DNA of 64,000 nt from Citrus sinensis (lineage: Eukaryota; Streptophyta; Magnoliopsida; Sapindales; Rutaceae): the NCBI RefSeq assembly GCF_022201045.2, contig NC_068563.1, positions 25,393,001-25,457,000 on the forward strand, given 5' to 3'. This document shows positions 2,659-35,478 of the stretch, one piece after another. The notes below the pieces were generated by a model. The model did not search any database, was not told where the DNA came from, and worked only from the letters and a program-made list of their open reading frames with translations. The translations under genes were made by a program, and so were the position numbers. Every line of letters begins with the position of its first letter. The first letter of the stretch is position 1.

Positions 2659-3066
2659 TAAAATTAATGAAAAGAGAAGTAGGCCGGTTAAGCAATAATA
2701 CCGAAGCTCTTGTTAACGTTCATATTAAAGATTATTTTATTCCTAGAACTGTTTCAATTGTTGGCTTTTGCTCTCTATTTACATATTGATTAAATTCAAA
2801 AGAGAGTAGAAAAACAAATCAAAATAAAGGACAATGGACAAGGAAATCAATTTGGGATTTTAATTAGTGTTTAAATTATCAATTATTTATTTAGGGTTTA
2901 GAGTTGTAGAAATAACAAAATTGCCCCTTTGTCAGGAGATTTATTACCATTGAATATTGATTATTTGATTTTGATTCAAAAGAATCAAAACACAAAATTT
3001 AGATGCCAGAACAATTAAATCGCTGGCCACCTCTGACTGCTAGGGAGAAGGAGAGAGAAAATTAAG
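2659..3066. promoter_or_regulatory. Upstream region of the tRNA isopentenyltransferase gene
   Basis: This 408-bp stretch must hold the promoter and 5' leader of the gene that starts at 3067. It becomes less AT-rich near the start codon (ggctagggagaaggagagag type sequence). No convincing TATA box was seen, which would fit a housekeeping gene. Confidence 0.4.
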
Positions 3067-6000
3067 ATGGAAAATGGCGGATGCAAACAGAGAGCCCTAA
3101 ATAAGCCAAATCTAGTCATAATAATGGGTCCCACGGGTTCGGGCAAATCGAAGCTAGCCGTTGACTTGGCGTCTCACTTCCCAATCGAAATCATCAACGC
3201 TGACTCTATGCAAGTCTATCAGGGCCTTGATGTTCTCACCAACAAAGTCTCCCTTCAAGACCAAAAGGGTTTGTCCCCATTTTCTTTCTCTGTTTATGTT
3301 CTTCAATGTTCATTTTTGTGGATTGTGATGTTCAGTTGTGTTTTTGGTTTAAATGGGTTCTGTTTGTCATGTGATTTTGTAGGAGTGCCACACCATCTTC
3401 TAGGGACCGTGAGCCCCAACGTGGAATTTACTGCTAAAGAGTTTCGAGATTCTGCTGTTCCTGTGAGTTTATTTCATCATACTCTTCTGTTACTGCAATT
3501 GTTCTTAAGCAAGTTTAATTCGCGTGATGTTGATGTATTACTCGAAGTGTAAAATTTGGTTATGGTGTGTCTCTTTGTGTGTTTCTATGATTATTTCTCT
3601 GGCTTGTGTAGCTAGATGTAGTTGATTCCACATAAATGAGCATTACACTTGGTTTGTATGATTTCTGTGACTGTTTTATTTAGTTGAGGTGCGTGGAATA
3701 TAGTGCTTTGATGGCCTACATCGCTTACACTCTCATTCCTGGTGATCTCCAAATCTTAGTTTCTAAATAATTGAATACTTGATTTTCAGCTTATCAGTGA
3801 GATATTATCACGTGATCACATACCATTCATTGTTGGGGGTACAAACTACTATATTCAGGTATGGAAATTTTTTATCTTCCAACTTCATAAAGTTTACCGA
3901 TTTTACATTCTATCCTGCTGTTTTACGCATGGCAAATTTATTTTTAGAGGAGCATGTTGGTAGTTAAGTAGAATCTTCTTTTGTTAGGGTGAAACTTTGT
4001 TGATGTTCTTCTCTGCTTTCAGGCTCTTGTGAGTCCATTTCTTCTAGATGATTCAGCAGAAGATATGGATGAAAGCTGCTTTGGCAGCCTTTCTGGTATA
4101 AAGCAACTCTTTTACTTTACCTGTATCTGTACTTTGAATACTGTTTTATATCGTTTATTTTTCGCAGGGGATGAGCCGGTTGGTCCTGACTCTGACTTAG
4201 CAAGAGACAGTTCTAGCTACAGTTATGACCTCCTCAAAGACCTTGACCCAGTTGCAGCAAACAGAATTCATCCAAATAACTATAGAAAAGTAGGGGCTTC
4301 AATAAGTGAGCTCTTCAGTTTTAGATGTTGTAGTTTTTTCTCTTGCCAGATTGAATCCTAATATTCTTCTCCTTCTGACCTCTTTAGATTCTTTTGCATG
4401 ATTTTGCAGATCAAACAATACCTTAGCTTGTATGCACGCACTGGAGTTCTCCCTAGCAAACTTTATCAAGGAAAAGCCACTGAGGTTGGTTTTCCTTTCT
4501 CATAATAATTGGTTGTCTCCACAAATTTGTGCATTCCTCTATTTTCTAGACCTTAATCTTTGAAGCTGTTATGAAATAGGAGATATGAATTGTATCATGG
4601 GATGATTTAATTTATTGTTTTTTGAATTACCTTTGCCCTAGAACTTAGTTTTGGGGCTGCAGGCCATGTTGATGATGTTCCAGCTTCTCAAGTAATTTTT
4701 CTACTTAATCAGATTGGTCTAGTGCAGCATTTTGCAGTTTATCCTCTCATTTGGCTTTTGTCTTTTTTATTCTTTTGTTTTGCATTTTCTTTCTTTGATG
4801 GTACCCTGATGGTCTTTTGCAACCTAATGATTTTTGAATCATAAGTTATTTTAACTTGAAGGTGCTTCCAACTTATGTTTCTAAATGGAGTTAATATGCC
4901 TGACTTTCCATTTGATTCTGAAATTTGGAGTAGAACTAGTGAGCACTGAAATCAAGCTGAGTATTATCTGGGAATTGTAGTTGAATCTGATTTGACGGAC
5001 ATGCTTTTAAATATGTTGCATGTGGCAGGGCAGAACTGGGGCCAAGTAGACAATTTTAGATTCAATTGCTGCTTTATATGTGTTGACGCCGCAAATCCTG
5101 TGCTGGACCGATATGTGGAACAAAGAGTTGACTGCATGATAGATGCTGGATTGCTTGATGAGGTGTATGACATTTACAATGCGAATGCTGATTATACCAG
5201 AGGTCTGCGGCAGGCCATAGGTGTTCGGGAGTTTGAGGATTTTCTGAGCATTTACCATTCTGCGGACAGAGATAACAAGACAAGTGGACCTACTAATGCA
5301 ACTCTGAATTCTAGAAACAAGGATGACAAGACATTGAAAGACTGTATGAGAGCAATACTTAAGTCATCCGCTGATGATCAACTAAAAGTACTTTTAGAAG
5401 AGGCCATTGATCGAGTAAAATTAAACACCAGAAGACTTGTTCGATGTCAAGTAAGCATATACAATCTGATATCCATCTCCGCTTTTTCAACAGATTTTTT
5501 TCCCAAACAAATTTATTTCACAATTGGATCATATCTTTTCTTCTTTTTTTTTTTAAATGGATCATATCTTATTTGATATTGGTCATGTATGTGAAAATAT
5601 TGCGACTTTGCCTTTATGTTTTTGGTTTTTTCAGGAATCAACAAAAGAAACATACTAGATAAAAATACAAATGAGCAAACAAGATTCTCCCAAAAATTAT
5701 GAATTCCTCGTTAAATTCATAATTCTGAAATGAAGAAAACCTTGTTTTTCTTCCAATCCTCCTCTTCATATGATAAGTTTTCGGTTTTCTCAGAGTTCTA
5801 TGGCTTTTCTTTTTCTTTTTTCTGGCGCTCTTTTACAAGTTTTTGGTGAAGTATTCACCAAGTGAATATTAAAGGAAAAATTATTTTTAAATAAGCGCAT
5901 ATTCAAGGAGAGAAAACTGTTTGCTCTATACCAATTGTCACATAACAGATTTGTTTTTCGTGATCTGCAGTCAAATTTTTTGTGGCATTCATTTACCTCT

Positions 6001-11046: not shown

Positions 11047-11051
11047 AAGAG

Positions 11052-12360
11052 TGTTGAGTGTTAGAAAATGTATATTTATAAAGGAGAAAATCGTTATTTT
11101 ACATTTCAAGTTTTACTAACAACCCTTACTTTTATGTATTTAAGGTTCTTGTAATTTAATTATATGTGTTTTATTTTAATTAAGTATTTTGTGTATTTTA
11201 GAGGCATCATAGTCATTTAACAATAAATGAGAGATCAAACGGCAAAACAAACATTACTTTTGAACTCAGAACGGTCGAAAACCTTAGGAGGAGCATAAAA
11301 GGAAAAATGACACTGTTCACATGTACGGTACTGTCTACGTTACTGTTCACGACACTGTTCATATAGACGGATCGATGATGTGGCATTGACCGATGATGTG
11401 GCATTGACTGATGAGGTGTTATGATCCTGTTGGTCTAAAATTCTTACGAACTGTTGATGGTGACGTGGCAGCATATTAGTGGACCAAAACTTGCGCGTAC
11501 GGTACATGCATTACACATAATTATTTTCAACCAAACCGCGTTACTGTTTAAAGCCGGGTCAAACCGTGTTACTGTTCACCCGCGTGGTCAAACCGCGTAC
11601 TGTTGACTGATGACGTGGCGCAATCCTGAGCGTCCAAATTGTTTTTAATCCGATGGCCACGATTTACTCAATGTATCTATAAAAAGGGGGCCTCCCCCCC
11701 TAATTTGATATCTCTGAATCCATTTTTGGGATCCATTTTCTGTAATTCCTTCTCCATCTTGTATTTTCTACGTATTTTAATAAATTCTCATTTTGCCCCT
11801 AGTTCAATTATGAGTGACTAATTTTCTTTCAAGCTTGGGTCGAAGGTGAAGTCTCAACATATGACATGGGCTTTATTTGGTAAATTTACTTTTTCTTTCC
11901 CTCTAGTTTTTGTGGATGTTTTGACTTCTCGTCGACAAATAATAATAATCTTGTCTAGATACCGCCTTGGTTACACCGGCTCTCTAGTGCAAGGTTATTA
12001 TTATTTGGCACGATAAGCCCTTAGCACCATATTGATTAGAGTGTGGTTCATGAGGTGTGGATTCCCCCCTCATGATTTAATTGGTATTAATAAGGAATAT
12101 TTAGCCCATGATGCATGTTGATACGGATCCAGATACCCAAGTACGTCATTTTAATAGATTTCTATTCAATTTATTCTCGCCATTTAAATTCTAATTTTAG
12201 GATAATCCAAATCATTTTCACCACAAATCCAACCACTTATTTACAAAATTAATTCTACACACAATTCAAATCCACCTCCTCGTGGGATCGACACTCGTCA
12301 CCATTGATCTATTATACAATAGATTCGTGCACTTGCGAGTTTAATAAAATTTGCACAATA
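11052..12360 (+). repeat. 5' LTR of the Athila-like element
   Basis: 1309 bp. A TATA-like ctataaaaaggggg is at about 11677-11690, followed by a leader and an aataaa polyadenylation signal near 11778. The last two bases are TA instead of the usual CA (the 3' LTR has CA). Short gacactgttca type repeats mark the upstream part. Confidence 0.92.
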
Positions 12361-12366
12361 AGTTTT

Positions 12367-12384
12367 TGGCGCCGTTGCCGGGGA
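12367..12384 (+). other. Primer binding site, tRNA-Asp type
   Basis: TGGCGCCGTTGCCGGGGA matches the 3' end of plant tRNA-Asp(GTC) in complement. It starts 7 bases after the LTR end. tRNA-Asp priming is usual for the Athila/Tat lineage. Confidence 0.88.
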
Positions 12385-12715
12385 GGTAAGTTATTTTAAT
12401 TTGTAAAATTAATTTTTGTGAATAATTTCTTTTATTTGTTTTCTTGTATTTTTTTTCTTATTAAAAAAAAGAAAAAAAAAGTGAATCTGCATTTAAAGGT
12501 TAGTATTTCTTTTCTTTTTCTCTTCTTTAAAATTCTGTAATTTAATTTTCAAGTTTTTTTTTCCTTGTAATTTTTTTTAGTTAATTTATTTCACGTATTT
12601 GTTTTAATGTGTTTTTATAGTAAGGTTGTAATAGCGCAATAAGGTTAGTATCAAAATTTCTCCTTCTTCTTTATTTTTATTTTGTTTTGTTCCCATTTAT
12701 TTTTCTGTTTCTTGC

Positions 12716-14470
12716 ATGCATGGTCGTAGGTCATTATTACCTAATCTTGAACCTATAGACCTTGAACTAGAAAAATCACTTCGCACACACAAACAAGTTA
12801 AAAATAAAATAGATTTGCAACTACAAGAGAGGCCATTTAAGGACTATTTTAGTCCCTTAGATAATTTGAGCACATCGTGCATAAGATACCCAAATGTAGC
12901 TGCTAGGAGTTTTGAATTAAAACCTAGTGTGCTAAATTGTCTCCCAACATTCTATGGCCTAGAAAATGAGGACTCATATAATCATCTGAATGATTTTCAT
13001 GTTATTTGTCAAACATTTAAATGAGAATTTTTCAGACGATGATGTTAAACTCAGATTATTCCCATTTTCTTTAAAGGATAGAGCTCGTTCATGGTTAAAT
13101 ACTTTGCCTGCTAATAGCATTACATCATGGGAACAAAATTTTTGAATAAATATTTGCCAGTGCATAAAACCAATGTTATTCGCAGGGAAATTTCAGAGTT
13201 TACACAGAGAGAAGACGAGCAATTTTTCAAAACATGGAAGCGATTCAATGAGCTACTCTTGAAGTGTCCACATCATGGGTACGAGAAATGGCACCAATGT
13301 CAATACTTTTTGGAGGGATTATTGCCGAATGTGCAAGAATGACTAATGGCAACAAGTGGAGGAAAGCTAATGTCAAAAAGTGCATCAGAGATTTAGGAAT
13401 TCTTCCAGCGACAAGTGGATAATTCCCAACAACGGAGTCGATCACTCAGGAATACTAGAAGAATTAAGGGAGTGAATGAGGTTCATATTGGCGAGTCAAC
13501 TTCGGGAATCAAAGAAATCAAGGAGATGGTTGAAGGTCTCGCTCGACAAATAGCATCGTTATCGACTGCTAAATCAACAGAACCACATGACCATGACTCA
13601 TACTCAGATCAAGCCAATGTTATAAGTGTAATGAGAAAACAATCTAATTACAACCCATACTCTAACACATATAACCCTGGATGGAGAGACCACCCCAATT
13701 TTTCATAATCTCAAGGATTCCAACAGAATGGACTAGCAGCTTTAGCTCTACCAATGCAACAAATTCCTCAAGTTCCTCAAGCCTCTCAGCCACCATTTAG
13801 ACCATACAATCAAAACCAGAACTACTCTCAACCCAGACCATGGGAGGATGCATTCCAGAATTTCAAGAATGTTACTCACTCCACGATTGAGCAACAGAAC
13901 CGCACCATTGATGGACTATGAAATGAGTTGAGAGCGGGCTTCAACTCACAAGCTCAATCAGTTTCAAGCCTCGAAAAGATGGTGGGACAGCTTGCTTCTT
14001 CAGTTCAGACATTGACAATGACTGTTGAGAAATACAAGTTTCCAAGTCAACGAGTGCCTAATCCTAAAAGGAGTACATGAAGCAAGTACCAGTTCATAAC
14101 AACAGCATGGAGAGGTCAAACCAGTCATGACCTTACGAAAAGGAAAAGAAGTCGACAACAAAGTGGAGATGCCGGTGACAAAAGAAAATTAAATTGTACC
14201 TGTGAATGTTGAGGACTCACCATCAGAAGAGAAAGAAGAAAATCAATATGTTCCGAAAGCTCCATTTCCTCAGAGGTTAGTGAAAGGAAAGAAAGGAAAA
14301 TTCACAGGTGAGATTCTCGAAATCTTCAAACAGGTAAGTGTTAACATCCCTTTACTTGATGCTATAAAGCAAGTTTCATCTTATGCCAAGTTTCATCTTA
14401 TGCCAAGTTTCTTAAAGACATTTGTACTAAAAAGAGAAACATCCATGCTTAAAAGAAGGCATTTTTAACA
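12716..14470 (+). pseudogene. gag of the Athila-like element, decayed
   Basis: Gag forms the capsid that packages the retrotransposon RNA. The start MHGRRSLLPNLEP leads to ARSFELKPSVLNCLPTFYGL and NHLNDFHVICQTF, then RARSWLNTLPANSITSW and RREISEFTQREDEQFF with LLLKCPHHGYEKW, all Athila-type capsid motifs. The frame breaks near 13022, near 13135 and at 13340-13342, with further in-frame stops near 13707, 13919 and 14080. The tail is rich in Q, N and P and then acidic (NVEDSPSEEKEENQYVPKAP). No CCHC zinc knuckle was seen, as is common in Athila. Confidence 0.85.
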
Positions 14471-14519
14471 GAAAACGTTAGTTATATCCTCCAACATAAA
14501 ATTCCTCTAAAATGCAAAG

Positions 14520-17500
14520 ACCCAGGCTCCCCCACTATCTCATGTAGTATAGAGAACCACACAATTGAGAATGCTTTGTTGGATTTAGGAGCTAGTGTAA
14601 ATTTATTGCTTTACTCAGTATTTTTGAAACTTGGACTTAGAGAATTACACCCAACTCCAGTGGTGTTACAGCTTGCAGATCGGTCCACGAAAATACCTCG
14701 TGGTATTGTGGAGGACATGCTTATCCAGGTAGACAAGTTTTATTTTCCTGTTGATTTCATTGTAATTGACACTCAACCAATACATTATTCAAGGAAGCAC
14801 ATCCTCATTATTTTAAGCCGACCTTTCTTAGCAACTGCGGATGCTCATATTCAATGCAGGACTGGAAATATGCAGTTGTCCTTCGGCAACATGACAATGG
14901 AGCTAAACATTTTCAACATTGCCAAACAACCTCACAATGCAGATGATGGAGTTGTTGATGTGGATTTAATAGAAACAATAGTTAATAATATTTTTCTTTC
15001 AAACCTTAGTGATGATCCTTTACAAACATGTTTAACTCACTTTGGTTTGGATTTTGATATTGACAGATCGGTTGATAAGGTCAACGCCCTACTTGACTCA
15101 GCACCATCCATTGATACCAATAAATGGAAGTTAAGAGTTGAACAACTAGCACCATCAGAGAAGAAACTCATCCCATCATCAGAATCATCACCGAAACTCG
15201 AGCTTAATCCATTACCCTACACTTTGGAATATGCATTTTTTGGAGGAAAAAGTACTCTACCAGTAATCATCTCATCATTCTTAAATGACAAACAAAATGG
15301 TAAGTTGTTGGATGTTTTAAAAGAGCATAAAGGAGCATTAGGATGGACCATAGCAGACATAAAATGTATAAACTCAGTAGACTGCATGCATTACATTCAC
15401 CTTGATGAAAATACTAAACCTACTAGGGAAATGCAACGTCGGTTAAATCCTAACATGAAAGAAGTTGTTAGAACTGAAGTCCTTAAGCTATTAGACGCAG
15501 GTATCATTTACCCAATTTCTGATAGTTCATGGGTTAGTCATATACAAGTTGTCCCTAAAAAGTCATGAGTCACAGTAGTTACGAATGTCGATAATGAATT
15601 GATACCCACTAGAGTGACTACAAGTTGTCATATACAAGTTGTCCCTAAAAAGTCATGAGTCACAGTAGTTACGAATGTCGATAATGAATTGATACCCACT
15701 AGAGTGACTACAAGATGGCGTGTATGCATTAATTATAGAAAGTTGAATTCTGTCACACGTAAAGACCATTTTCCTTTACCATTTATCGAACAAATGCTTG
15801 ATAGATTAGCAGGCCATGAATTTTATTGCTTTTTAGATGGCTACTCAAGATACAATCAGATCCTCATAGCACCAAAAGATCAAGAGAAAACTACTTTCAC
15901 TTGCCCTTTTGGCACTTTTGCATATAGGAGAATGCCATTTGGATTATGTAATGCACCTGCTACATTTCAACAATGCATGTTAAGCATTTTTTCTGATATG
16001 GTTGAACGATTCCTTGAAGTCTTTATGGATGACTTTTCTGTTTTTGGTGACTCATTTGATCAATGTTTACATCATCTAACACTAGTTCTGCAGAGATGTA
16101 TAAAAAAAAACTTGGTCTTAAATTGGGAGAAGTGTCATTTTATCGTAAAACAAGGTATTGTTCTCGGTCACATCATTTCGAGCAAAGGTATTGAGGTTGA
16201 CAAAGCCAAGATGGATCTCATTTCTAATTTTCCTCCACCCAAAACAGTCAGAGAAGTAAGATCTTTCCTTGGACATGCTGGTTTCTATAGATGTTCCATT
16301 AAAGATTTTAGCAAAGTTTCTAGACCCTTTATGCAATTTACTTGCTAAGGATGTACCTTTTATCTTTAATGAATGATTCATGTCTTGTGGCTTTTGAAAA
16401 ATTAAAGCAATTGTTGACATCATCACCCATCATCCAGCCCCCAAATTGGAGCTTACCATTCGATATCATGTGTGATGCATCTGATTATGCAGTAGGAGCA
16501 GTATTAGGACAAAGAGTTGATCGAATTCCTCATGTTATTTATTATGCTAGTATGACATTCAATGATGCACAGTTGAATTATTCAACTACTGAAAAAGAAA
16601 TACTAGCAGTAGTGTTTACATTAGAGAAATTTCGATCTTATCTCATTGGTTGTAAAATAATTGGGTTCACTGATCATGCTGCTCTTAAATATCTTCTCAC
16701 AAAGAAAGATGCAAAAGCTAGACTAATTCGTTGGGTGCTACTTTTGCAGGAATTCGACTTGGAATTTAAAGATAAGAAAAGCACAAAAAATGTTATGGCA
16801 GACCATCTTTCTCGTCTCCATTTTGACACAATTATAGAGCCATTAACATTGAATGAGTCATTTCCAGATGAACAATTGATGAGTGTGGAAGTATTATCAT
16901 GGTATGCTGACATCGTGAATTATCTTGTTACAGGTCAACTTCCAGAGCATTGGACCAAGCAAGACAAGGCTAATTTTTTTGCAGAAATAAAGAATTTCTT
17001 TTGGGATAACCTGTATTTGTTCAAGTATTTTGCAGACCAAATTGTTAGACGATGTGTCCCAGAAAGGGAAATTCATAATATCCTTTCATTATGCCATGAA
17101 CAAGCTTGTGGAGGCCATTTCAGTGCTAAGAAAACAGCAACTAAAGTTTTACAATGTGGTTTCTATTGGCCAACTATATTTCGAGACACTTACACTTTCT
17201 ATTCTTCATGTGATAGGTGTCAACAAATGGGGAGCATTACACGAAGGAACATGATGCCACTAAATCCAATTTTAGTGGTTGAGATTTTTGACGTATGGGG
17301 TATCGACTTCACGGGACCATTTCCCCCTTCTTTTGGCCATCAATACATATTGGTTGTTGTTGACTACGTATCGAAATGGGTAGAAGCAATTCCATGTAGG
17401 ACCAATGATCACAAGGTGGTGATAATATTTTTGAAAAGGAATATTATTTCACGATTTGGATTCCCTCGAGCAATAATCAGTGATGGTGGTGCCCACTTTT

Positions 17501-18195
17501 GTAACAAAGCATTCAAAACTCGTTTGACAAAGTATTCAATCACTCACAAAGTGGTGATCCCATATCATCCGCAAACCAATGGTTAAGTTGAGATCTCCAA
17601 TCGAGAAATAAAGCACATATTAGAAAAGACGGTGAGGCCGGACAGAAAAGATTGGTCATTAAGACTTGATAATGCATTATGGGCATATAGAACGGCTTGC
17701 AAGACCCCGATTGGGATGTCACCTTACAGGCTAGTGTATGGAAAAGCTTGCCACCTACCTGTGGAACTCGAGCATCATGCATATTAGGCCATCAAGAAAT
17801 TCAACTTTGACATGCAGCAAGCTAGCTTAGAAAGAAGATTACAACTGGTAGAACTTAAAGAAATTCGCAATGATGCATACGAAAATGCCAAGATTTACAA
17901 GCAACGAATGAAAGTCTTCCATGACAAACAAATTATGAGAAAATCGTTCACTCCATGTCAGAAAGTGCTTTTATTCAATTCTCGCTTGCACCTATTTCCA
18001 GGTAAGTTACGCTCTCGTTGGTCTGGTCCCTTTATTGTTCATATTGTTTTTCCACATGGGGTAATTGAAATTAAGGACCCAAAGAATTGTGTCACATTTA
18101 AAGTTAATGGTCAAAGATTAAAGTCATATCTAGAATACCAACCACATGGAAAAGACACCGAAATAAATTTGAGTGACCCACCAGATTTGAATTGA
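14520..18195 (+). pseudogene. pol of the Athila-like element (protease, RT, RNase H, integrase), decayed
   Basis: Order of domains: aspartic protease with ALLDLGASVNLL near 14570; reverse transcriptase from about 15420, with the catalytic box VFMDDFSVFG near 16020; RNase H with [14 protein letters not shown] near 16470; integrase with a zinc part ([14 protein letters not shown]) near 17090-17225 and a core with WGIDFTGPF and IISDGGAHF; and a chromo-less C-terminal part ending [11 protein letters not shown]. Breaks: TGA at 15566-15568 (repeated in the duplicated copy at 15656-15658), a frameshift near 16340, TAA at 17584-17586 and TAG near 17786. Order RNase H before integrase marks Ty3/gypsy. 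Confidence 0.92.
15537..15714 (+). repeat. Perfect 90-bp tandem duplication inside the RT region
   Basis: The stretch from gtcatatacaagttgtcccta to gagtgactacaag occurs at 15537-15626 and again at 15627-15714, period 90, with no differences seen. Because 90 is a multiple of three it keeps frame, but both copies carry the same TGA stop. Perfect identity implies a recent event, after the stop arose. Confidence 0.95.
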
Positions 18196-18379
18196 TTTTT
18201 TTCTTTTCGGTGGTTTGATTTTTCTTTCTTTCTTTTTATTATTTTTTTATTAGTATTAAAAATTGTTTAATTATCAAGCGATAATATGTTATTTTATGCT
18301 TATGTTATAATTTATATTTGTGTTTATGTAATATATTATGAATTATTAATTATGTTTTAATTATATTTAATTTTATGTA
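18196..18379 (+). other. Spacer after pol in the Athila-like element
   Basis: Very A/T-rich spacer with long T runs. No ORF. Confidence 0.5.
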
Positions 18380-19686
18380 TTTTTATTAGGAAAAATATTA
18401 ATTTCACGTACTTCGAGGCTCCAAACAGATAAATAGAGGTCAAATTTGGATTCCGGAGGTCTGAAAACCTTAAAATCAGTCAAGATCAGCTTAAAATTGG
18501 GCTTGTGTAAAAACAAATTGACTTTTCCTGTTGACCGAGCACTGATTGAATGATGAAATGAGCTTACAATAGATATGAGTGCATGGGATAGCTGGCAATC
18601 TTGACCAAATCTCAACTGTTCATAATTCAATGGCCATGATTGTGCCATGTGGCAATGGTTGGTGAAGCAAGTTGAAGGATTCGAATATTTGTATTCGGGT
18701 CGACCCGATCCACCCATTAACCCGCCAAATCTCAACCGTTCTTTGGGCAAATCGGACGAGTCAAATGATGCCATGTGTGATGTTGACTTTTGAAGTTTGA
18801 CAGCCATTGGATCTTGATCTAAGGGTTGTGAGGAGCACATGCATGAAACCTATGATGAACCGCAAAGCACTGGATTATGAATTTATTTTTCTATAAATAG
18901 AGCCTAATTTTTATGTTTTAATCATCTCTCTACAACTCTCTTCTTCTCAAATTCTCTCCATCTCCTTGTAATCTTGATTTCCAGGTGTGTTTTTAATATT
19001 TTGTATAATTATTTTCATTAATAAAATTAGTTTTATTTCCCATTTTAGTTGTTTTTATTTCTTTTAATTATAAGTAATTCAATTTTACTACTTCTTTTTA
19101 TTTTAATTATGCTTAACTAAATAATATTAGTTAGAGGAAGGTGAAACTATTAAGAAATAAATATGATTTAATCAAATTCTATGTTTAATTTTATAAATTA
19201 AATTATTTTCTATTTAATTTTATACATGTTTTATATTTTGAAATTTTGATTTATTGTAGACAAACAAATGAATTTGGCACAATAAATTCTTAAGATCTTA
19301 ATATAAGGCATGGTGAAATGGTATTTTAACTTATTGTAGACAAATTAAATTTTGACACAATAAATACTTAACCCATCATAAATTTAAAGGGAAAATAATA
19401 ATAATTTTTATAATTAATCTTTTGGGTAATAAATCTAAAACAAATTGGCAAAAAGAATTTATTAAGTTTTATTTATTTCTAAGAGTGGATCCATAACCCT
19501 AACTAGTTCAATTCTATAGTTTCATTTAAATTAAGTTGTTTATATTCAAGTTTTAATTTCAATTTTTAGATAAAATAAAATAAACTAATTAAATCTTTTC
19601 TCTGTGGATCGACCTCGGACTCACCGAGTTATAATACAACAAGACACTCTTATACTTGGGAGTTAAAATTTACTTTTAAGTTGTGT
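18380..19686 (+). repeat. Diverged internal LTR-like segment with TATA box
   Basis: The landmarks of the element's own LTR recur here in the same order but strongly diverged: ctataaatagag (18891-18902, TATA), a leader with ctccatctccttgtaatctt, an aataaaattagttttatttc polyadenylation-like stretch, aggaaggtgaaact, tttggcacaataa, gtggatccataaccc, and the end block gtggatcgacctcggactca with gggagttaaaattt, closing near gttgtgtca. The true LTR has the same series (gtcgaaggtgaagt, ttggcacgataa, acggatccagataccc, gggatcgacactcg, gcgagtttaataaaattt). No primer site follows. It looks like an LTR of a related but different family captured between pol and the extra ORFs, where it could serve as their promoter. 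Exact limits are approximate. Confidence 0.6.
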
Positions 19687-19762: not shown

Positions 19763-19969
19763 ATGAGTACCATACTTAGACCGTTCCTCCTAAATATTCT
19801 TAAACCACTTCAACGTGTTAAAACTCATCTCAAAACGCAGATTTAATTTTGTAAAACACATCGTATTTGGGCTCTGCAACCACCAGAGTTAGTATCTTAT
19901 GTTGAGGGTTTAGAAAGCCAACTCAGAGACATTGAGAGAAGTGTTTATGACATCTAGTTGGAGCTTGAG
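19763..19969 (+). pseudogene. Extra ORF 1 of the Athila-like element, unknown, decayed
   Basis: From the ATG at 19763 the frame reads MSTILRPFLLNILKPLQRVK, then after one TAA (19844-19846) it continues with a coherent stretch holding PPELVSYVEGLESQLRDIER and, after a TAG, LELE before a possible splice donor (gtaaat at 19970). Two in-frame stops in 69 codons. It resembles no family I know; the second half could form an amphipathic helix. It lies just 3' of the internal LTR-like segment. Confidence 0.4.
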
Positions 19970-20137
19970 GTAAATTCAATAAGATGATGATTTTGATTTT
20001 CTTTGTGTGTTTTAATTTATTTTTCTGTTGGTGTACTTTAGTTTGTTACCCCGGTGAAGTGGCGGATAACGGTACTCCGTGACAATCAAGTCAGTTACTT
20101 CAGTTTCCCATAATAACTGATATTCTAAGGCGAAGGT

Positions 20138-20698
20138 ATGGACAGAACCGAGATTCTAGCGAAGTTTCACAAGCGATTCCCTTCACTTCCTCAGAATGCT
20201 CTCCTTACAATCTATAAAGCTCGGTCCGAACGCATGCGATTGCTCATGAGGAATAACATACCTGCGAACATCCGTTGGTTAATCGAGGCTAAAGTACGAT
20301 TGGCATGTGAGTTACCTCCAAAATTTATTGCATACATGCCTGGTTGTGGTAAAGGAAATTATGCAAGAAAACGACGAGCTCGAAGAATTTCTGTTGCTTG
20401 CCATAAGTGTGCCAGAATGAGTTGCGATAAAAAACCCATGTTCTTTAGGAATAGTATCTGATAACAGGGAAGATAAGATTCAATTCATTATGGATGGCTT
20501 GAATAAAGAGCCATTGGATGATATCCTTTTGTCTCTTGAAACGCATCCTAGTGTATATGTGCAAGGAGCGATTCTCCAGTTATGGCCATTATTCCAGAAA
20601 GAGCATGCACGATATAGTCTCGGGAATCTGACTATAAACGACCTTGTTTGCCAGTTTATAAGAAAACTGGATGGGAAGCCCATCCTCGACCCATAGAG
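20138..20698 (+). pseudogene. Extra ORF 2 of the Athila-like element, unknown, one frameshift
   Basis: The first part (20138-20461, 107 codons) starts MDRTEILAKFHKRFPSLPQN, is very basic in the middle (KGNYARKRRARRISV) and has two closely spaced cysteine pairs (CHKC, then C). A frameshift near 20440-20455 leads to a second part ending at 20696, with DKIQFIMDGLNKEPLDDILL and NDLVCQFIRKLDGKP. Together about 185 residues. I do not recognise it. The basic stretch and Cys/His residues could bind nucleic acid, but that is only a guess. It is not similar to the env-like ORFs I remember from Athila or Calypso elements, and no membrane segment is visible. Confidence 0.5.
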
Positions 20699-21015
20699 GG
20701 CGTTCAAGCCGTTTCTGGACGTAAAACCAGAGGAAGATGTGAGCCACAGTCACAACTACTTGTAAATATCATTTTACTTCACTGTTATTTTATTTCACTG
20801 TTATTTTATCTTTTTCATTATTGGAATTAATAATTTTATTTTATCATTATTTCTTTTTCTTTTTACTGTTTCTTTTTTGACTCGCGAGCCATGTGCTTTA
20901 CGCGTTATTTGACACTAACATGCCACCTCATACACAGTTGTGACCCACTGTCACCAAGATTTTTAAATATGACTTTTTGTTAAGCACTCAAAAATTATTT
21001 TTGAGAAATATTCCA

Positions 21016-21684
21016 ATGGCAGCTACTCCTAATAAACAATTCAATAACATTTATGTGCTTTCTGAATTTACCTATGGCAAACATAAAGAGTTCATTGATG
21101 CAGCCATAGATCTTGGTCGAAGCATAGCATAGAGAAAATTACACTTGGTGTATGGAGGAGGTAACCGAGGGTTATCCAAATTGGTCTTAGAAGCTGCTTT
21201 TGTCAGAGGAAGCCAAGTGTTAGGCATCATCCCAAGAGTCCTAAAACCTTTGGGCAGTTTGTCTGACTCATCGACTGGAGAAGAGTTAGTCGTCTCAGGT
21301 ATGCAAGAAAGAATAACTGAAATGCTTAATAATGCTGATGCTTTTATTTTTCTTCCAGGAGATCTTGCAACACTAGAGGCACTTATCACACTAGCATCTT
21401 GGGCCCATCTGCACATTCACCAGAAACCCATCGGTTTGTTAAATGTCAATAACTTTTATGATGGCTTCATCGTATTTCTTAACCATGCAATAAAAAATTA
21501 CTTCATTCCTTCCAATGCGAAAAAACTTTTTATTTGTGCTCACACTGCTAATGAGCTACTTGATATGTTACAAGCTTATAAACCGGAGCCAAACCCATGG
21601 ATCTTTGTGTTGGAGCGTCCAAATAATGACGGTAACAGTAGCCGCAGTAAGAAGTACAAATTAGATTTACCTCTCCGCCTGTAA
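21016..21684 (+). pseudogene. LOG-like (LONELY GUY) ORF carried by the retrotransposon
   Basis: LOG enzymes cut ribose 5'-phosphate from cytokinin nucleotides to give active cytokinin bases. The 222-codon frame covers the full fold: start MAATPNKQFNNIYVLSEFTY (where LOG has its first strand), IDAAIDLGRSIA, LVYGGGNRGLSKLVLEAAF, VLGIIPRVL, GMQERITEMLNNADAFIFLPG, WAHLHIHQKPIGLLNVNNFY and ANELLDMLQAY. Plant LOGs are about 210-230 residues, so length fits. It is intronless, whereas plant LOG genes have several introns, so capture through spliced RNA is likely. One TAG stop lies at 21130-21132 (residue 39); the frame is otherwise open for 183 codons. The catalytic motif PGGxGTxxE reads PGDLATLEA here: a Gly, the second Gly and the final Glu are replaced, while the Arg (in QERI) is kept. 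LOG activity is therefore unlikely even without the stop. The C-terminal tail (RPNNDGNSSRSKKYKLD) is not typical of LOG. Confidence 0.8.
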
Positions 21685-23525: not shown

Positions 23526-24853
23526 TGTTGAGTGTTAGAAAATGTATATTTATAAAGGAGAAAATCGTCATTTTACATTTCAAATCTTACTAACAACCCT
23601 TACTTTTATGTATTTAAGGTTCTTGTAATTTAATTATGTGTGTTTTATTTTAATTAAGTATTTTGTGTATTTTAGGGGCATCATAGTCATTTAACAATAA
23701 ATGAGAGATCAAACGGTAAAACGGACATCACTTTTGAACTCAGGACGGTCGAAAACCTTAGGAGGAGCATAAAAGGAAAAATGACATTGTTCACATGTAC
23801 GGTACTATTTACATGTACGGTATTGTCTACGTTACTGTTCACGACACTGTTTACATAGACGGATCGATGATGTGGCATTGACCGATGATGTGGCATTGAC
23901 TGATGAGGTGTCATGATCCTGTTGGTCTAAAATTCTTATGAACTGTTGATGATGACGTGGCAGCATATTAGTGGACCAAAACTTGCGCGTACGGTACATG
24001 CATTACATAGGATTATTTTTAACCAAACCGCATTACTGTTCAAAGCCAGGTCAAACCGTGTTACTATTTACCTGCGTGGTCAAACCGCGTACTGTTGACT
24101 GATGACGTGGCGCAATCCTGAGCGCCCAAACTGTTTTTAATCTGATGGCCATGATTTACTCAATGTATCTATAAAAAGGGGGCCTCCCCCCCTTAATTTG
24201 ATATCTCTGAATCTATTTTTGGGATCCATTTTCTGTAATTCCTTCTCCATCTTGTATTTTCTACGTATTTTAATAAATTCTCATTTTGCCCCTAGTTCAA
24301 TTATAAGTGGCTAATTTTCTTTCAAACTTGGGTTGAAGGTGAAGTCTCAACATGTGTCATGGGCTTTATTTGGTAAATTTACTTTCTCTTCCCCTCTAGT
24401 TTTTGTGAATGTTTTGACTTCTCGTCAACAAATAATAATAATCTTGTCTAGATACCGCCTTGGTTACACCGGCTCTCTAGTGCAAGGTTATTATTATTTG
24501 GCACGATAAGCCCTTAGCACCATATTAATTAGAGTGTGGTTCATGAGGTGTGGATTCCCCCCTCATGATTTAATTGGTATTAATAAGGAATATTTAGCCC
24601 ATGATGCATGTTGATACGGATCCAGATACCCAAGTACGTCATTTTAATAGATTTCTATTCAATTTATTCTCGCCATTTAAATTCTAATTTTAGGATAATC
24701 CAAATCATTTTCACCACAAATCCAACCACTCATTTACAAAATTAATTCTACACACAATTAAAATCTACCTGCTCATAGGATCGACACTTGTCACCATTGA
24801 TCTATTCTACAATAGATTCGTGCTCTTGGGAGTTCAATAAAATTTGCACAACA
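23526..24853 (+). repeat. 3' LTR of the Athila-like element
   Basis: 1328 bp, starts tgttgagtgttag and ends ttgcacaaca. It is longer than the 5' LTR mainly through an extra copy of a short unit (acatgtacggta) near 23800-23825. Differences from the 5' LTR are a few percent by eye and mostly C/T or G/A. Confidence 0.92.
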
Positions 24854-24858
24854 AAGAG

Positions 24859-25882
24859 AAAGTGGACATGATTGTAGAAATAATCCAAACCAAAGAAAAA
24901 TAGTTTTTGCAGAAAATGTATAACAACTCTAATCCATAATTTAACTTCTCACGTGGTAGGCTCAAACAGTTTTAGGCAACACATCAAATTAAATCTTATT
25001 GAAGGTTTGGTGAAAGTGGTTCAGTAGCTATGGAGAATATTAAAGCTGCTTTACCAATTATAAAAGCTAAACTAAACCAATTTCAATGGAAGGATATCTA
25101 CAATATGGATGAAACTGGTTTATTCTATCGTTCGGAAGCAAATCATACACTTGCTACAAAGCCATTAAAAGAACGGAAGAATGACAAGGAGAGAATTACT
25201 ATTGTTGTTTATTGCAATGGTGATGGTTCTGACAAAGTACTACTTTGGATTATTGGTACGTATGCTAATCCTAAATGCTTTAAAAATGTAAACATTAGCA
25301 ATCTTAATTGTCATTATCGAGCTAACAAAGAAGCATGAATGACTAGATTACTTTTTGAAGAATTTGTTTATTGGTTTGATGAGAGAATGAATGGCAAAAA
25401 AATTTTACTTTTGGTAGATAATTGTCCTGCCCATCCAAAGGTTATTGAAGGCTTGAGTAATGTTGAATTATTTTTCTTGCCTCCAAATACAACCACAAAT
25501 ATTCAACCATGTGATGTTGGGATTATTAGTAAATCCATTATCGATGTCGTTTTTTTTTTCTAGTGTCTTGAAAGGCTACAAGATAGGAGCAACAAATCCA
25601 AAAAAAATTAACGTATTGAATGCTATCAATTTTATTAATGCGGCTTGGAACATTGGTGTGAAGAATACAACCAATGCAAATTGTTTTCAACATTGTAAAA
25701 TTCGATTAGATGAAGGTGTGGCTACCGAACAACAAGTTGGTGAAGATGAAGGCATCCATGGACTACAAGGAGTTATTTCTGGTCTACACTATAGAAATGA
25801 CATGGATATTAAGCATCTTTTGAATTATTCTTGTGAAAATGATGCAGCAATGGAATCTCCTACTGATGAAGAGATTATTTAA
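24859..25882 (+). pseudogene. pogo/Tigger transposase, 3' part (DDE domain), decayed
   Basis: Catalytic domain of the transposon split by the Athila-like element. The first Asp is in IYNMDETGLFYR (near 25100), the second in LLVDNCPAHP (near 25415), and the third in NIQPCDVGII (near 25510), the DDD pattern of pogo-type DDE_1 domains. A TGA stop at 25336-25338 is followed at once by an in-frame ATG. A T run at about 25549-25559 shifts the frame; the C-terminal part continues in another frame to 25882. Stops also precede 25030. Confidence 0.85.
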
Positions 25883-29530: not shown

Positions 29531-32500
29531 CTAACCAAGAGTGTACAATCTCATAAGTATCATTACAAAGTAAACCAAAATAGCAAGGGGAGGAGAAAGA
29601 AGAACATGCAAGCCTATGGGTGTAGTTAGGCTATAGGAAGTAAGGAAGTCCGCATCACTATTTGCCTCTTTGTACACATGCTCCATGTGGACGATCCAGT
29701 CACGTGCTAATAATTCCTGAATAACTTTGACAAGAATTGCATTTTCGTTGGCTGAAGGATGAGCCCTTTCCAAAAGATGCACTATGCTCTTATTATCCAC
29801 TCCCACTTGAAGACGTCTAAAGCCATGATCCCAAGCCACTCTCAAGCCATGCAAAAGACCCCAAAGCCCAGCCGAGAGAACTGAACACATTCCAAGGTTA
29901 ACAGTGAATCCCATGAGCCAATTTCCATTGAAGTCTCGAATCAATCCACTAGCCCCAGCATGTCCAGACCCCTTTCTGGCACCATCCGTATTTAAACTAA
30001 TACACAGCCTAGTAGGAGCTTTCCCCCTTATCATTGTCTCCACTCGCTGTTGTTTCCCAAGCAAAGGTTGGTGACTATAGCGTAAAATCTCATGCGTTCG
30101 AACCTTTATGTATGTGGCAATAAAGCCACTCTCCCATGAGCCATGATTAAAGAGAACGTCATTCCTCCAAAACCATAATCTCCACACTGCTACTCCAAAA
30201 CATACTCTCTAATACTCCTGACTTGTGTCATTTGTATTTCTCATCAAATTAATCTGCAGCCAATCAGTAAGAGAGCAAAGAAAAAAGCTAGGGGGATGAT
30301 GGGTAGGCAAGAGATAAGAACATACCCTCCTAGCCGTAACACAGTCACGGAGAGTATGAAGAATATCCTCAACCAGCCCTCCACATCTATCATATTGAGT
30401 AGAAACAACCAAATGTCTCTTATGAAGCTCCTTCCTCGTTTTCAATCGACCATGCAAGAGGAGCCAAAGAAAAACACAGATGCTCTGGGGGCCCTTCCAG
30501 CTCCAAGCCAAATGCCAAAAATTACGATCTCCATTGCCAATAGGATCATTTAAAAGCTCATAAGCAGATTTTACAAAGAAAATTCCATTAAAGGAAACTC
30601 CTCAAAAGTAATTGTCAACTCTGTGAGAACCTTTAAGAGGATGAACTGAAGCGATCTTTAAAAGTATGTTATTAGGCACCAAGTCGCTAAACAAACACCA
30701 ATTCCAATTTCTAGTTTCCAGTTTCATCAATAAAATCAACTACCCGCTTGCTAAGTAATGTATTCAAAATTGGTTGTGTCACACAGTCCGCCAAAGGGCT
30801 CGAAGTTGTCACCCAACAATCCCACCAAAACCTAACATTTTTCCCATCACCAATGTTCCACTGCATTCCCACTCGAGTTTTCTCCCAAATGTTTCCCATT
30901 GTTTTCCACAAATGAGACCCATATCGAGTAGACAGGCTTGTAGGAACCTCATCCAATTGAACGCCATACTTAGTTAACAGTACTTGATTACTAAGCTTCG
31001 TTGGTTCAGTGATTAACTGCCAAGTGTTCTTCATAAGGAGGGCATGATTCATGATATTCTGCTTCTTAAAACCGAGACCCCATTTGCATTTTGGAGTGCA
31101 AATCATATCCCAATTAACCAAACTCATTTTTTAATACTCAGCTGAACCACTCCAAATAAAGCGCCGACATAACTGATCAATCTTCATTTTTATACTTCTT
31201 GGCAGGTTTGTGGTTTGCATTACGTATACAAGAATAGCTTGTAAAACTGATTGCGCCAACGTGATGCGTCCCGCTAAGGTCAGGTGTGAAGCATTCCACC
31301 CAGAAAGCCGTTGATCAACTTTATCAATAATACTTTGGTAGGTTTGCTTCGACATCCGATTATGGCATAAAGGGACCCCCAAATACTTCCCCAAATTGTC
31401 AGTGACTGAATAACCCAGATCAGAGCCAATTCTGGAAGCCTCCATGGCTGATATATTAGTAGAAAAATAAACCAAGGTTTTGGATTTATTAACCTTGGCT
31501 CCCGAGCTAGCAAAAAAATAATCTATAAGCTTATTAATAATTATAGCCTGCTGGCTAGAGGCCTCTGATAGCAACAAAAGATCATCTGCAAAAAATAAAT
31601 GACTCAAAGGGGTTCTCATTCTTGCTAATCGAATTGGCTTCCAATGACCCTGTTGGATAGATCTAGAAATCCCATGGCTGAGGCGTTCGATACAAAGCAC
31701 AAAGATATACAGTGAAAGTGGATCACCTTGTCGAACACCCCTTTCTGAACGAAATTCAGAAGTAAGTTCACCATTCCAGAGCACATTCATCGTGGCTATA
31801 GTGATGCACTCCGTGATGAGATTAATAAGCATAGTCGGAAAGTTCAACTCCTGAAGAGTTTCGTGAATAAAAGACCAGCTCAGCCTATCATATAATTTCT
31901 CTAAATCCACTTTTATTGCCATAAAACCTTTACGCCTTTTTTTCCTTCGCATGGAATGGATAATCTCCCGTGCAACTATAATATTTTCAGTGATATGGCG
32001 GCCAGGTACAAAGATGGTTTGATGGGATCCAATCAGATCAGGGAGCAACTCCTGCAATCTATTAGTTATAATCTTTGTGATTGTTTTATACGTCACCGTA
32101 AAGAGGCTGATAGGACGATACATCCTAAGAGAAATTGGTTGCTCCATCTTTAGAATGAGAACCAACACGGTTCTGTTAACCTTAGCAGGAATAGATTGAG
32201 TTTGAAAAGCCTCATTAATTGCCTTACAGAATGACTCACCCATAATATGCCATTGAGTCTGATAAAAAATCGCATGCAGACCACCTACTCCTGGCATCTT
32301 AAGTGGGCTCATATTGAAAAATGCATGCCGAATTTCTTTTTCCTCAATCTCAGTAGCTAGGGATTCCAATCTAGGGTCATCAATTCGCGGAAAAGCACCA
32401 CAAACTTGATAAGGCATATATACCCCTTGCTTCGAAGTGTAAAGGTTAGAGAAAAAGTTGGTAGCCTGTTGTTTGATAGCATCCATGTCATAAAGCCACT

Positions 32501-33633
32501 GACCATCCTCTGCCTTAATTACATCTATCTTGTTATGGCGTCGTCTAGTAATTGTTTTTTTTTATGGAAATATGCAATATTTCGATCACCAAACAAAATT
32601 TAATCCCTTCTCGACTTCTGTAACCACAACAACTCCTCCTGCATCAAAATCTCCTCCAGCTCTCTTTTAAGCTTAGCCTCAAGGCAGTATAAACTTCGGA
32701 GAGGTCACCGTTCTAGAGCTCTTTGAACTCCTCCAATCCTTACCAGCAAAACCTTCTTCCTTTGGAAAATATTCCCAAAGCTATTTTTATTCCAGTGCTG
32801 CACCTGTTGGATAAACTCTGAAGCCACCCGATAATAAGGCATTTCATTATTCCAATGAGTCTTCATAAAGTCTGTAAATCTCGAATTTGTCAACCAAGTA
32901 GCCATGAAACGAAACAGCTTTGGAGATTTATTATTTCGGGAACTTTGATCAAATCTAATTAGGACAGGGCGATGATCGGATGCCACTTTTGGCAAATGTA
33001 AAACCGAGGCATTAGGATTCTGTAAAAACCAAGCCTTATTACAAACAACTCGATCAAGGCGCTTTGAAAGGGAGCCACGCGACCATGTATATCTGGGGCC
33101 CTTAAACTGCAAGTCATGAAGCCTATTTTTATGAAACCAATTGCTGAAATTTTTGCAAACACCGCTTGCCGTAGAAGACCCCCAATCTTTTCTCCTTGAA
33201 ATATGATCGAGTTAAAATCACCTCCAACAATCCAAAGATCATTGGTGATAGTAGCCAGGTGATTAAGGTGATCCCATAGCTCACGGCGGATAATCGGAAC
33301 TGGACTAGCATACAACGTAGTAATCCAGGATATCAACACATTGTTACGCTGCAGCTTAAGGTGAATAAATTGCTTGTGATTAAAAGTAATCTCTACATCA
33401 AACTGATCCCTCCATAGCAGCCATATTCTACACGAAAAAACTATTGCTTCCACTCTATGAGATCGAGCAAAACCACTCGCCTTAATGAAGTTGTCTGCTT
33501 TCCGCCCACTAATTTGCGGTTCCATAACCACCACCATAGCCTGCTTATACCTTTGAATAATGGTCTTAAAAGTTTGTCTAAAAGAATGGGAAGTCGCTCC
33601 CTGAACATTCCAAAACAATACTGACATCATCAT
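29531..33633 (-). pseudogene. LINE ORF2: endonuclease, reverse transcriptase, RNase H, decayed
   Basis: Starts MMMSVLFWNVQGATSH, the apurinic/apyrimidinic-type endonuclease that nicks the target; IVGGDFNSI is its later motif. A frameshift near 33115 is followed by KVASDHRPVLIRF. The reverse transcriptase (31131-32486) has GVRQGDPLSLYIFVLCIERL and the catalytic LFFADDLLLLS. A stop at 31131-31133 and others follow; then a zf-RVT part (CVFLWLLLHGRL, HTLRDC) at 30209-30511 and an RNase H domain (ISLNTDGARKGSGHAGASG, then ADFLTSYSL) at 29531-30187. Several stops and frameshifts make it inactive. RNase H at the C-terminus is seen in some plant L1 lineages. Confidence 0.88.
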
Positions 33634-34214
33634 AATTAAATATATACATAGAGGTAAATGATCTTTATATCTACTGCCCATGAACCTGTTGTATGCATGC
33701 TCCGGGCATTTCCTCCACCATTGACTCTTCACCTTCAGACATGGCTTCTTTAATTACATCAGCTTCTGTCATTTCGATTAGGATAGTGTGGATTTTGAAT
33801 TTCTTGTAGTTCATTATCCACCAAAGTGTTATTAGCAAATGTATGGTATACAGGTGTACTCAGCTGAGGTGAGCAAAACACCACAGTATGCCTGGTTGGG
33901 TCTAAGGTGGTTGGAACGGTAGTTGTAACATGGCCAGTGGACCTGCCATGGGTAAAAAGACAATGGATGAGGCTAGGGTTTGCATGGGTTATATTGTTTA
34001 CATCGTTTTTATGGCTAGTCGATGGTACATGGGAGATATCAGCTGTTTGGAAGGGTTTGGTTGATGGGAAAGCCTCGGGTATATTTTGTATAACAATTGC
34101 AGCTTTTTTCTTTTGCTTTCTTTGGAGAGCACTTTTGGAGGGCTTAGCTTTGGTTGGTATTGTCTCATGGTTAGCTTTCCTGGTGGTAGCTTAGAATTGT
34201 AGATATGTGTCGAG

Positions 34215-35360
34215 CTAATCATTAAGTTCTGGGATTGCACGATTAAGATTCTGCTCATGAAGTTGTTCTAATACTTGAAATCTTGATACAGTATTTCCTT
34301 GGATCGATCTATTCTGATTTGGCTCCCCTACAGTTTCCTTACCACTAGCTATTTTACGACCCCTCCTGGAGGCAACCATCCAAGGTCCAAAAGGTTCAAA
34401 GTGGGTATCCTTAGACCTGCCATCCTCCTGTGCAGCGTGCACATCTCTTCGTTGGCTATCTTTTCTGTAAGTCTCTTCTCCTCCAAATTGCCCATCGTTA
34501 ATGTTCTCACTACAATCCCCATTGTTGTGACCATATCTGCCACACTTAAAACAAATGATTGGTAACCCTTCATATTCAATCTTTTAAACCCTTCCATTCA
34601 ATTCAACTTCAGAGACTAGAGGTTTTGCAAGAGAAATCCTAACAGCAATTCTTGCGAATTTACCTCTTGTCGACAATTCTGTATTATCATTAAGTTTGAT
34701 AACTTCTCCAACTAATTGGCCAATTTTAGAAAGGGTTTTCTGGTGGTATAAGTATATGGCTAAGCTTGGTAATCGAATCCAGACATTGACATATTCAAAG
34801 TTCATAACTTTGCTATCGAAATCAGGCGTCCATTGCTGCACAGTTAGATAATGGCCTAAAATGATCCATGGACCTCTCGTCAAAGCATCCAAGGCGTCCC
34901 CTACATTGCGAAATCGTACCAAGAAATAGTTATTTTCCAAATCAATCACCGAATAACTCATAGAAGGTTTCCACATGTTAGCCAGTCGAGCACAAAGAGC
35001 CTTATAACCAATATTCCTTCCTAACAGCTTTACCACAACCGAGTTCTTCCATGGTTGAATGAGTTTCTCTTGTATCCTGGCCGAGAAACTTATAGATGGC
35101 ATTACTCCATCATGATTCTCAATCACATCACCCTCTTCAAACTCCCAGTCTGCTTCACTTCCGCCAATCCCAGCCACCCTATATTGTGAATCGCCCACTA
35201 GGGTTTCCTTGTAAGTCACCAGCGGCGGATTGTCCTCATCTGTGCCTTCTTCCCTCATCCGAGCTTTTTTGGTTGAACGCGTCGCCTGTAACGGCGGTGA
35301 AAAAACCCTCGCGAAACTAGGGTTTTTGCCTCTTCCGATGTTGTCGGAGCTTCCTAACAT
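34215..35360 (-). pseudogene. LINE ORF1 (DUF4283 and zinc knuckle), one in-frame stop
   Basis: RNA-binding protein of the LINE. The likely start is the ATG at 35360 (MLGSSDNIGRGKNPSFARVF). A DUF4283 domain follows, with NYFLVRFRNVGDALDALTRG and PWIILGHYLTVQQWTPDF. A TAA at 34584-34586 interrupts the frame just before the CCHC knuckle CFKCGRYGHNNGDC. The tail (FGPWMVASRRGRKIAS) is typical of this family and ends at 34215. Confidence 0.85.
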
Positions 35361-35478
35361 TTCGAAGCCAAATAATTGATATTTTAATCTATATATATAT
35401 ATTTTAATTTCATACGATTGAATTGTTACCATTTTAACACACATCAAAATTATGGCAATATTTAACTACATTTGTTTT

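Follow-up and report, generated by a model that had tools for sequence, protein, structure and literature searches.

Cargo of the LOG type is already known in retrotransposons of this genus, because Alvarado-Marchena et al. (2022; PMC9289625), in the sections of that article available to us, report that Gypsy consensuses from Citrus sinensis and C. clementina contain a YgdH (LOG) domain. The same sections show this domain in Populus trichocarpa when the count filter of the screen is not applied, and cite Steinbauerova et al. (2011). The published Citrus elements carry the same LOG-type domain as the one analyzed below and are probably the same elements. As far as the available sections go, the published result is one of detection, to which we add here the site changes, the selection, the element families, the relics, a companion frame (ORFb) and a conserved 119-nt block. 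We found no published account of the altered site, of the selection or of the ORFb companion, about which Steinbauerova et al. (2011) may say more, and the accessible portions of PMC7264820, PMC11963269, PMC7145672 and PMC6466647 held no LOG cargo. Gypsy elements of orchids likewise carry a host-type enzyme domain, in this case an AlkB-type m6A demethylase; the orchid enzyme is active in vitro according to the available text (PMC9289625), whereas the catalytic site of the element LOG is altered, as known from its sequence.

The window (the whole 64,000-nucleotide stretch of C. sinensis DNA that was analyzed) contains an Athila-like element of 13.8 kb, flanked at both ends by a 5-bp duplication, AAGAG, which was read from the sequence at 11047–11051 and 24854–24858. 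Comparison of the LTRs placed the 5' copy (TG..., ends set by eye) at 11052–12360 and the 3' copy at 23526–24853, both on the plus strand, as are all element features given below unless otherwise stated. The primer binding site TGGCGCCGTTGCCGGGGA (12367–12384) is what we take to be the complement of the tRNA-Asp 3' end, as in Athila. Pfam profiles located a pol piece with aspartic-protease likeness at 14453–15565 (PF13650, 24.2 bits with a cut-off of 24.3), a reverse transcriptase piece at 15659–16345 (PF00078) and an RNase H plus integrase piece at 16324–17583 (PF17917, PF17921, PF00665). Two broken gag fragments, at 12635–13024 and 13397–13705, had no Pfam match, ATHILA ORF-1 included. Between pol and the LOG-like frame (21016–21684) lie an ORFa remnant found by eye (19763–19987), interrupted in the window copy and 75 aa long in other copies, and ORFb (20138–20693), frameshifted in the window copy and 184–185 aa long elsewhere, in which a basic stretch is followed by the motif C-X2-C-X4-C-X4-C. 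With the LTRs, the pol pieces and the duplication all located, the LOG frame does sit between pol and the 3' LTR, as an earlier note on this DNA had stated. That note had also called the element an Athila-like retrotransposon. The Gypsy part of the description holds by the order RT–RNase H–integrase, which is that of Gypsy elements in general; we regard the element as Ty3/Gypsy and as putatively of the Athila type, by likeness.

The two LTRs are 94.6% identical (K2P 0.042; 46 transitions and 7 transversions over 1308 sites), and at 5.62e-9, the Citrus substitution rate used in PMC6466647, this divergence corresponds to an insertion age of about 3.7 million years. With 1.31–1.33 kb they are also similar in length to the Citrus Athila solo LTRs, for which the available part of PMC6466647 gives a mean of 1302 bp. 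Within pol, a 90-nt tandem duplication with 99% identity was observed at 15537–15716, and an antisense open frame of 158 codons without a Pfam match lies between pol and ORFa (18376–18849, minus strand). Outside the element, the window holds a DDE_1 transposase fragment just beyond the 3' end (25003–25335) and a LINE-like element on the minus strand (31134–35465; RVT_1, E 3.3e-33; DUF4283, E 1.4e-30). A piece of a host gene with homology to IPP transferases, enzymes of cytokinin-pathway type, was found at 4950–5573 (PF01715, E 9.3e-13), about 5.5 kb from the 5' LTR; exon-like frames start at 3037, and that at 3037–3552 resembles, by eye, the first exon of the PF01715 gene. The nearness of this gene to a LOG-bearing element is probably a coincidence.

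The LOG-like frame reads from ATG to TAA through 222 codons plus the stop, with codon 39 as the single internal stop. Its open part (21133–21681) scored far above the cut-off against Pfam PF03641 (E 2.5e-27; 96.1 bits, cut-off 27), which bears out the earlier description of an intronless LOG-like frame with one stop, and reached 100.9 bits against TIGR00730 (cut-off 96.35); the Arabidopsis LOG structures 2a33 and 1ydh matched it at 4.5e-34 and 2e-31, respectively. Full-length copies of the three element families defined below (A, B and C) also exceeded the TIGR00730 cut-off, with 126.8, 122.3 and 119.2 bits. Against the NCBIfam equivalog NF058542 (cut-off 300), the A, B and C copies scored 92.0, 78.4 and 82.0 and the fragments of AtLOG3 and AtLOG8 133.9 and 116.9; this model does not discriminate, because the two Arabidopsis fragments also miss its cut-off, and as true plant LOG fragments fail too, its score was dropped as an argument against an enzyme. 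An AlphaFold model (m9da9bc605bb2) of the family A copy L007, based on an alignment in which 15 of 19 sequences were bacterial LOGs, had a pLDDT of 80.9 and found its best PDB match in LOG3 (2a33; TM 0.91 by target length, 1.7 Å). The element protein is predicted to have the LOG Rossmann fold, in common with the plant LOGs AtLOG3 (2a33) and AtLOG8 (1ydh), to which the element LOGs are 42–45% and 39–42% identical. Unlike these plant LOGs, the element frames lack introns and do not keep PGGxGTxxE, His97, Lys100, Glu122 and Glu125. A Foldseek search of the LOG model against viral proteins gave three matches at E ≤ 0.001, the best being a cyanophage LOG family protein, with no plant-virus LOG among the 50 matches listed.

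The genome searched comprised 299.7 Mb in 11 contigs. A first-look search returned 2018 candidates, of which the 150 that were scored are 92–100% identical to the window LOG, and the loop pattern PG-D-L-[A/V]-T-x-E-A, which demands Ala at the catalytic Glu position, occurs at 855 places (438 + 417; control 0). The frame is thus not confined to this locus, and a lone chance insertion is ruled out by the at least 150 close matches and the 855 motif places. We assembled 76 distinct element loci, a non-random set in that 40 came from the motif list of contig C1 and the rest were top protein-search matches: 66 hold a single full-length frame (49 stop-free, 17 with stops), and ten were left out as frameshifted or partial. 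By best identity, the 66 copies divide into family A, that of the window (44), family B (19) and family C (3); one copy counted in family B, L082, shares no more than 69% identity with that family and might belong to a further one. Many family B frames of 228 aa are near-identical at scattered sites on several contigs (L030, L034–L042 and others), which suggests recent amplification. In 20 long copies on C1, selected by an intact LOG motif, stop-free full-length frames numbered 12 for LOG, 13 for ORFb, 15 for ORFa and 11 for the integrase piece. The idea that LOG has been preserved better than its neighbors, through longer retention or later acquisition than gag and pol, finds no support here: LOG is no more intact than the integrase or ORFb, and three families share the frame.

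The copies were examined at the residues that matter in the Corynebacterium glutamicum LOG, the numbering of which coincides with that of L007 when matched by motif. In the available text of PMC4979012, adenine is contacted by Met96, Lys100 and Glu121, ribose by Arg99, phosphate by residues 116–119 together with Ser19, and the prenyl group by Met96, His97, Lys100, Glu125 and Trp129; Arg99 and Glu122 are the proposed catalysts, and replacement of site residues by alanine, Ser19 excepted, almost abolished activity. In 66 of 66 readable element copies the LOG signature PGGxGTxxE has become PGDxxTxE[A/P/V], and five residues are replaced throughout (Lys100 by Ile, Gly116 by Asp, Gly118 by Ala/Val, Glu122 by Ala/Pro/Val and Glu125 by Thr/Ile), while His97 is replaced by Gln in 64 of the 66, two being unreadable. 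Retained are Met96 (64/66), Arg99 (63/66), Thr119 (66/66), Glu121 (66/66) and Trp129 (65/66). PGGxGTxxE in combination with the catalytic Arg and Glu was not found, the Arg being present in 63, the motif Glu in none and both loop glycines in none of the 66. Half of the copies (33) were chosen by a pattern that demands Asp116, Ala/Val118 and Ala122; the 33 that came from protein searches, one of them run with a canonical plant LOG piece as query, are independent of the motif, and all 33 are replaced at positions 100, 116, 118, 122 and 125. Of 80 bacterial LOG loci, 31 were compared; one was unreadable, and the other 30 all keep the last Glu of the motif. In the PDB, the AMP complex 5zbk has Ala at the catalytic Glu position, which we infer to be engineered, and 5zbj has Glu. 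A wider pattern with Glu at this position matched eight places in the genome (control 1): two relics, one host gene, two others and three places that combine the altered Asp-Leu-Ala loop with the catalytic Glu. Because residues reported as necessary for LOG activity are replaced in the readable copies of all three families, a catalytically altered and probably inactive LOG appears a better reading than the hormone-activation enzyme proposed in the earlier note, which becomes doubtful with the signature, Lys100 and Glu125 replaced in 66/66, catalysis being judged here from sequence.

The host genome also contains LOG genes of its own, and their structure agrees with the statement that plant LOG genes have introns: one on contig C5 is interrupted by introns that follow approximately residues 32, 64, 108 and 132 of the LOG3 fragment, and two on contig C7 have the same arrangement minus the last intron. 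The element frames are free of introns. A tree of 40 sequences places the element LOGs within the plant LOGs (UFBoot 94), adjoining LOG8 at 80. Two decayed intronless copies (C5:21026466 and C1:8962762), here called relic lineage D, retain PGGLGTLEE; a third such relic was not found among the best 150 scored matches. Adding the relics gave a tree of 41 sequences that joins them to A, B and C as a sister group (aLRT 99.1, UFBoot 100), and this whole assemblage is in turn sister to the plant LOGs (82.6/84). On that tree, the loop would have changed after the relics had split from A, B and C. A bacterial source of the frame is unlikely, as the trees place the element LOGs with plant LOGs (UFBoot 94 and 84). 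An initial pass over bacterial genomes with a single query gave no match. The proposed capture of a spliced transcript is in part sustained, since an intronless frame fits it, but the grouping with plant LOGs is only moderate in the second tree.

Between families, 12 representatives of LOG gave a dS of 0.56–0.93 and a dN of 0.12–0.19, with dN/dS of 0.16–0.30; within families most pairs give a higher dN/dS (maximum 1.39), as is usual for copies once they have inserted. Among 41 equal-length copies of family A, N/S was 2.57 for singletons and 0.73 for variants shared by at least three copies (p = 1.5e-4), and among 11 distinct copies of family B it was 3.71 against 0.40 for shared variants (p = 0.017); these and the following p values are a guide, as related copies are not independent. 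In family A, ORFb (26 copies) gave 3.25 for singletons against 0.60 (p = 9e-4) and the integrase (17 copies) 1.87 against 0.18 (p = 2e-8). No constraint was seen in ORFa of family A (24 distinct copies; 2.00 against 2.25, p = 1.0), for which dN/dS between A and B was 0.31–0.36. The LOG frame is selected, because its between-family dN/dS is low and amino-acid changes are depleted among shared variants; the suggestion that it was kept by selection thus withstood the comparison between element families. Judged by these variants, LOG and ORFb are constrained, less so than the integrase. The integrase dS is saturated for the A–B comparison, and the frames are therefore not comparable by dN alone.

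The start pattern of ORFb occurs at 977 places (472 + 505; control 1). On C1, an ORFb motif precedes 55 of the 86 LOG motifs by 1.1–1.2 kb on the same strand, and LOG follows 55 of the 87 ORFb motifs, a pairing matched by no more than one of 200 random placements. Elements with ORFb and without LOG were considered and discarded, as all four fetched ORFb places lacking the LOG motif carry a divergent or decayed LOG. The five ORFb copies compared (families A and B) all match Carla_C4 (E 3.9e-4 to 0.0089; best 20.8, cut-off 20.9) and Viral_NABP (E 5.8e-4 to 0.095; best 20.3, cut-off 23), with scores below the Pfam cut-offs; the window fragment matches Carla_C4 at E 7.2e-4, and one of the five copies also matched a C2H2 finger model (E 0.048). 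None of eight reversed or locally shuffled strings of one ORFb copy matched Carla_C4 or Viral_NABP. The four Cys are invariant in five of five aligned copies, and their spacing is that of a zinc knuckle with Cys in place of His, which makes convergence with nucleocapsid-type proteins a fair rival to a viral relationship. ORFb had no match in the PDB and, in PHROGs, only one at E 0.039 to a family of unknown function; its AlphaFold model (pLDDT 43) was not used. The protein probably binds nucleic acid. Plant-virus cysteine-rich and NABP proteins, such as the mandarivirus CRPs of citrus, resemble it in carrying a four-Cys motif after a basic stretch, and the available text on these proteins states that viral cysteine-rich proteins suppress silencing and that the one of chrysanthemum virus B induces hyperplasia (PMC12172455). 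The motif given for potato virus H, C-X2-C-X9-C-X4-C, differs from that of ORFb in its spacing (PMC3689765, accessible part). Titles and abstracts yielded nothing relevant linking retrotransposons with carlavirus-type proteins.

Over the end of ORFb and the spacer that follows lies the 119-nt block (20652–20770, matching L001:1020–1138), which in 60-base windows shows 93–95% identity when a family A copy is aligned with a family B copy, against a median of 67% over the 6.1 kb compared. Of 37 distinct pattern matches, 36 have a block of this same length and one is a chance match at the host locus L016; in several copies a second reading frame stays open through the block beyond the stop of ORFb. 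The block may be an RNA element, an overlapping exon or a recombination patch. It ends in GTAAATATC, which resembles a splice donor. A conserved spliced leader for LOG was rejected, the last CACAG before LOG not being common to most of the six family A copies in the alignment.

We favor, with a probability of roughly 0.6, the reading that LOG was captured by an Athila-like lineage and selected after its site had changed, with cytokinin release lost and a binding role in its place. Before families A, B and C diverged, an old Athila-like Ty3/Gypsy lineage would have acquired an intronless LOG coding sequence, the most likely source being a spliced LOG transcript of a plant; the nucleotide loop and the catalytic Glu would also have changed before that divergence, and purifying selection would have kept the LOG fold during the spread of the element. 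The release of cytokinin from its riboside monophosphate would have been lost, and the protein would act by binding, preferably by pairing with itself or with host LOG subunits and thereby either altering cytokinin activation or sensing an adenine nucleotide in element-expressing cells. A heterodimer with host LOG is our first guess in view of the LOG pocket, to which both subunits contribute according to the available text of PMC4979012. ORFb, selected too, would bind nucleic acid. Against this reading stand the weaker depletion among shared variants in LOG (0.73) than in the integrase (0.18), the three places that join the altered loop to a catalytic Glu, the demand for Ala at that position in the pattern behind the count of 855, and the retention of Arg99, Thr119, Glu121 and Trp129 in most copies, which would allow residual catalysis or a different substrate. 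A more speculative extension, which we hold only tentatively, is that LOG and ORFb form a two-gene host-manipulation set under joint selection, a dead LOG that interferes with cytokinin nucleotides or senses them beside a nucleic-acid binder related to viral CRPs; if true, the retrotransposon would act on hormone state and silencing, much like a plant virus.

A role of the re-used LOG fold in the life cycle of the element itself, in particle assembly or in RNA or nucleotide handling and with no cytokinin link, is possible at rather low odds: LOG is selected together with ORFb, the two are paired along C1 (55/86) beyond random placement, and the pocket has been rebuilt, but Glu121 and Arg99 on the adenine side are still mostly kept, and we know of no retroelement function of the LOG fold. 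Somewhat less likely still is a working cytokinin-activating LOG, which would raise cytokinin and favor dividing or meristem cells with heritable insertions. The LOG family match and predicted fold, the purifying selection on the frame and the PGGLGTLEE of relic lineage D are in keeping with such an enzyme, as is the presence of Arg99, Thr119, Glu121 and Trp129 in most copies; however, Glu122, both loop glycines, Lys100 and Glu125 are replaced in every one of the 66 copies, and alanine at site residues almost abolished the activity of the bacterial LOG (PMC4979012, available text). A passive passenger, copied by chance and in neutral decay, might explain the many broken copies (10/76 loci dropped, 17/66 kept ones with stops), yet it is contradicted by the between-family dN/dS of 0.16–0.30 and the shared-variant p of 1.5e-4 and is very improbable.

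The published screen (PMC9289625), in its available sections, catalogs domains captured by plant LTR retrotransposons. Together, the present observations make one captured hormone enzyme traceable across three families plus two relics, and they suggest a protein that was kept by selection after its catalytic site had changed. For annotators, this means that hundreds of element frames should not count as LOG genes. For the biology of the element, it raises the question of what a transposon gains from a LOG-like protein that perhaps does not make hormone.
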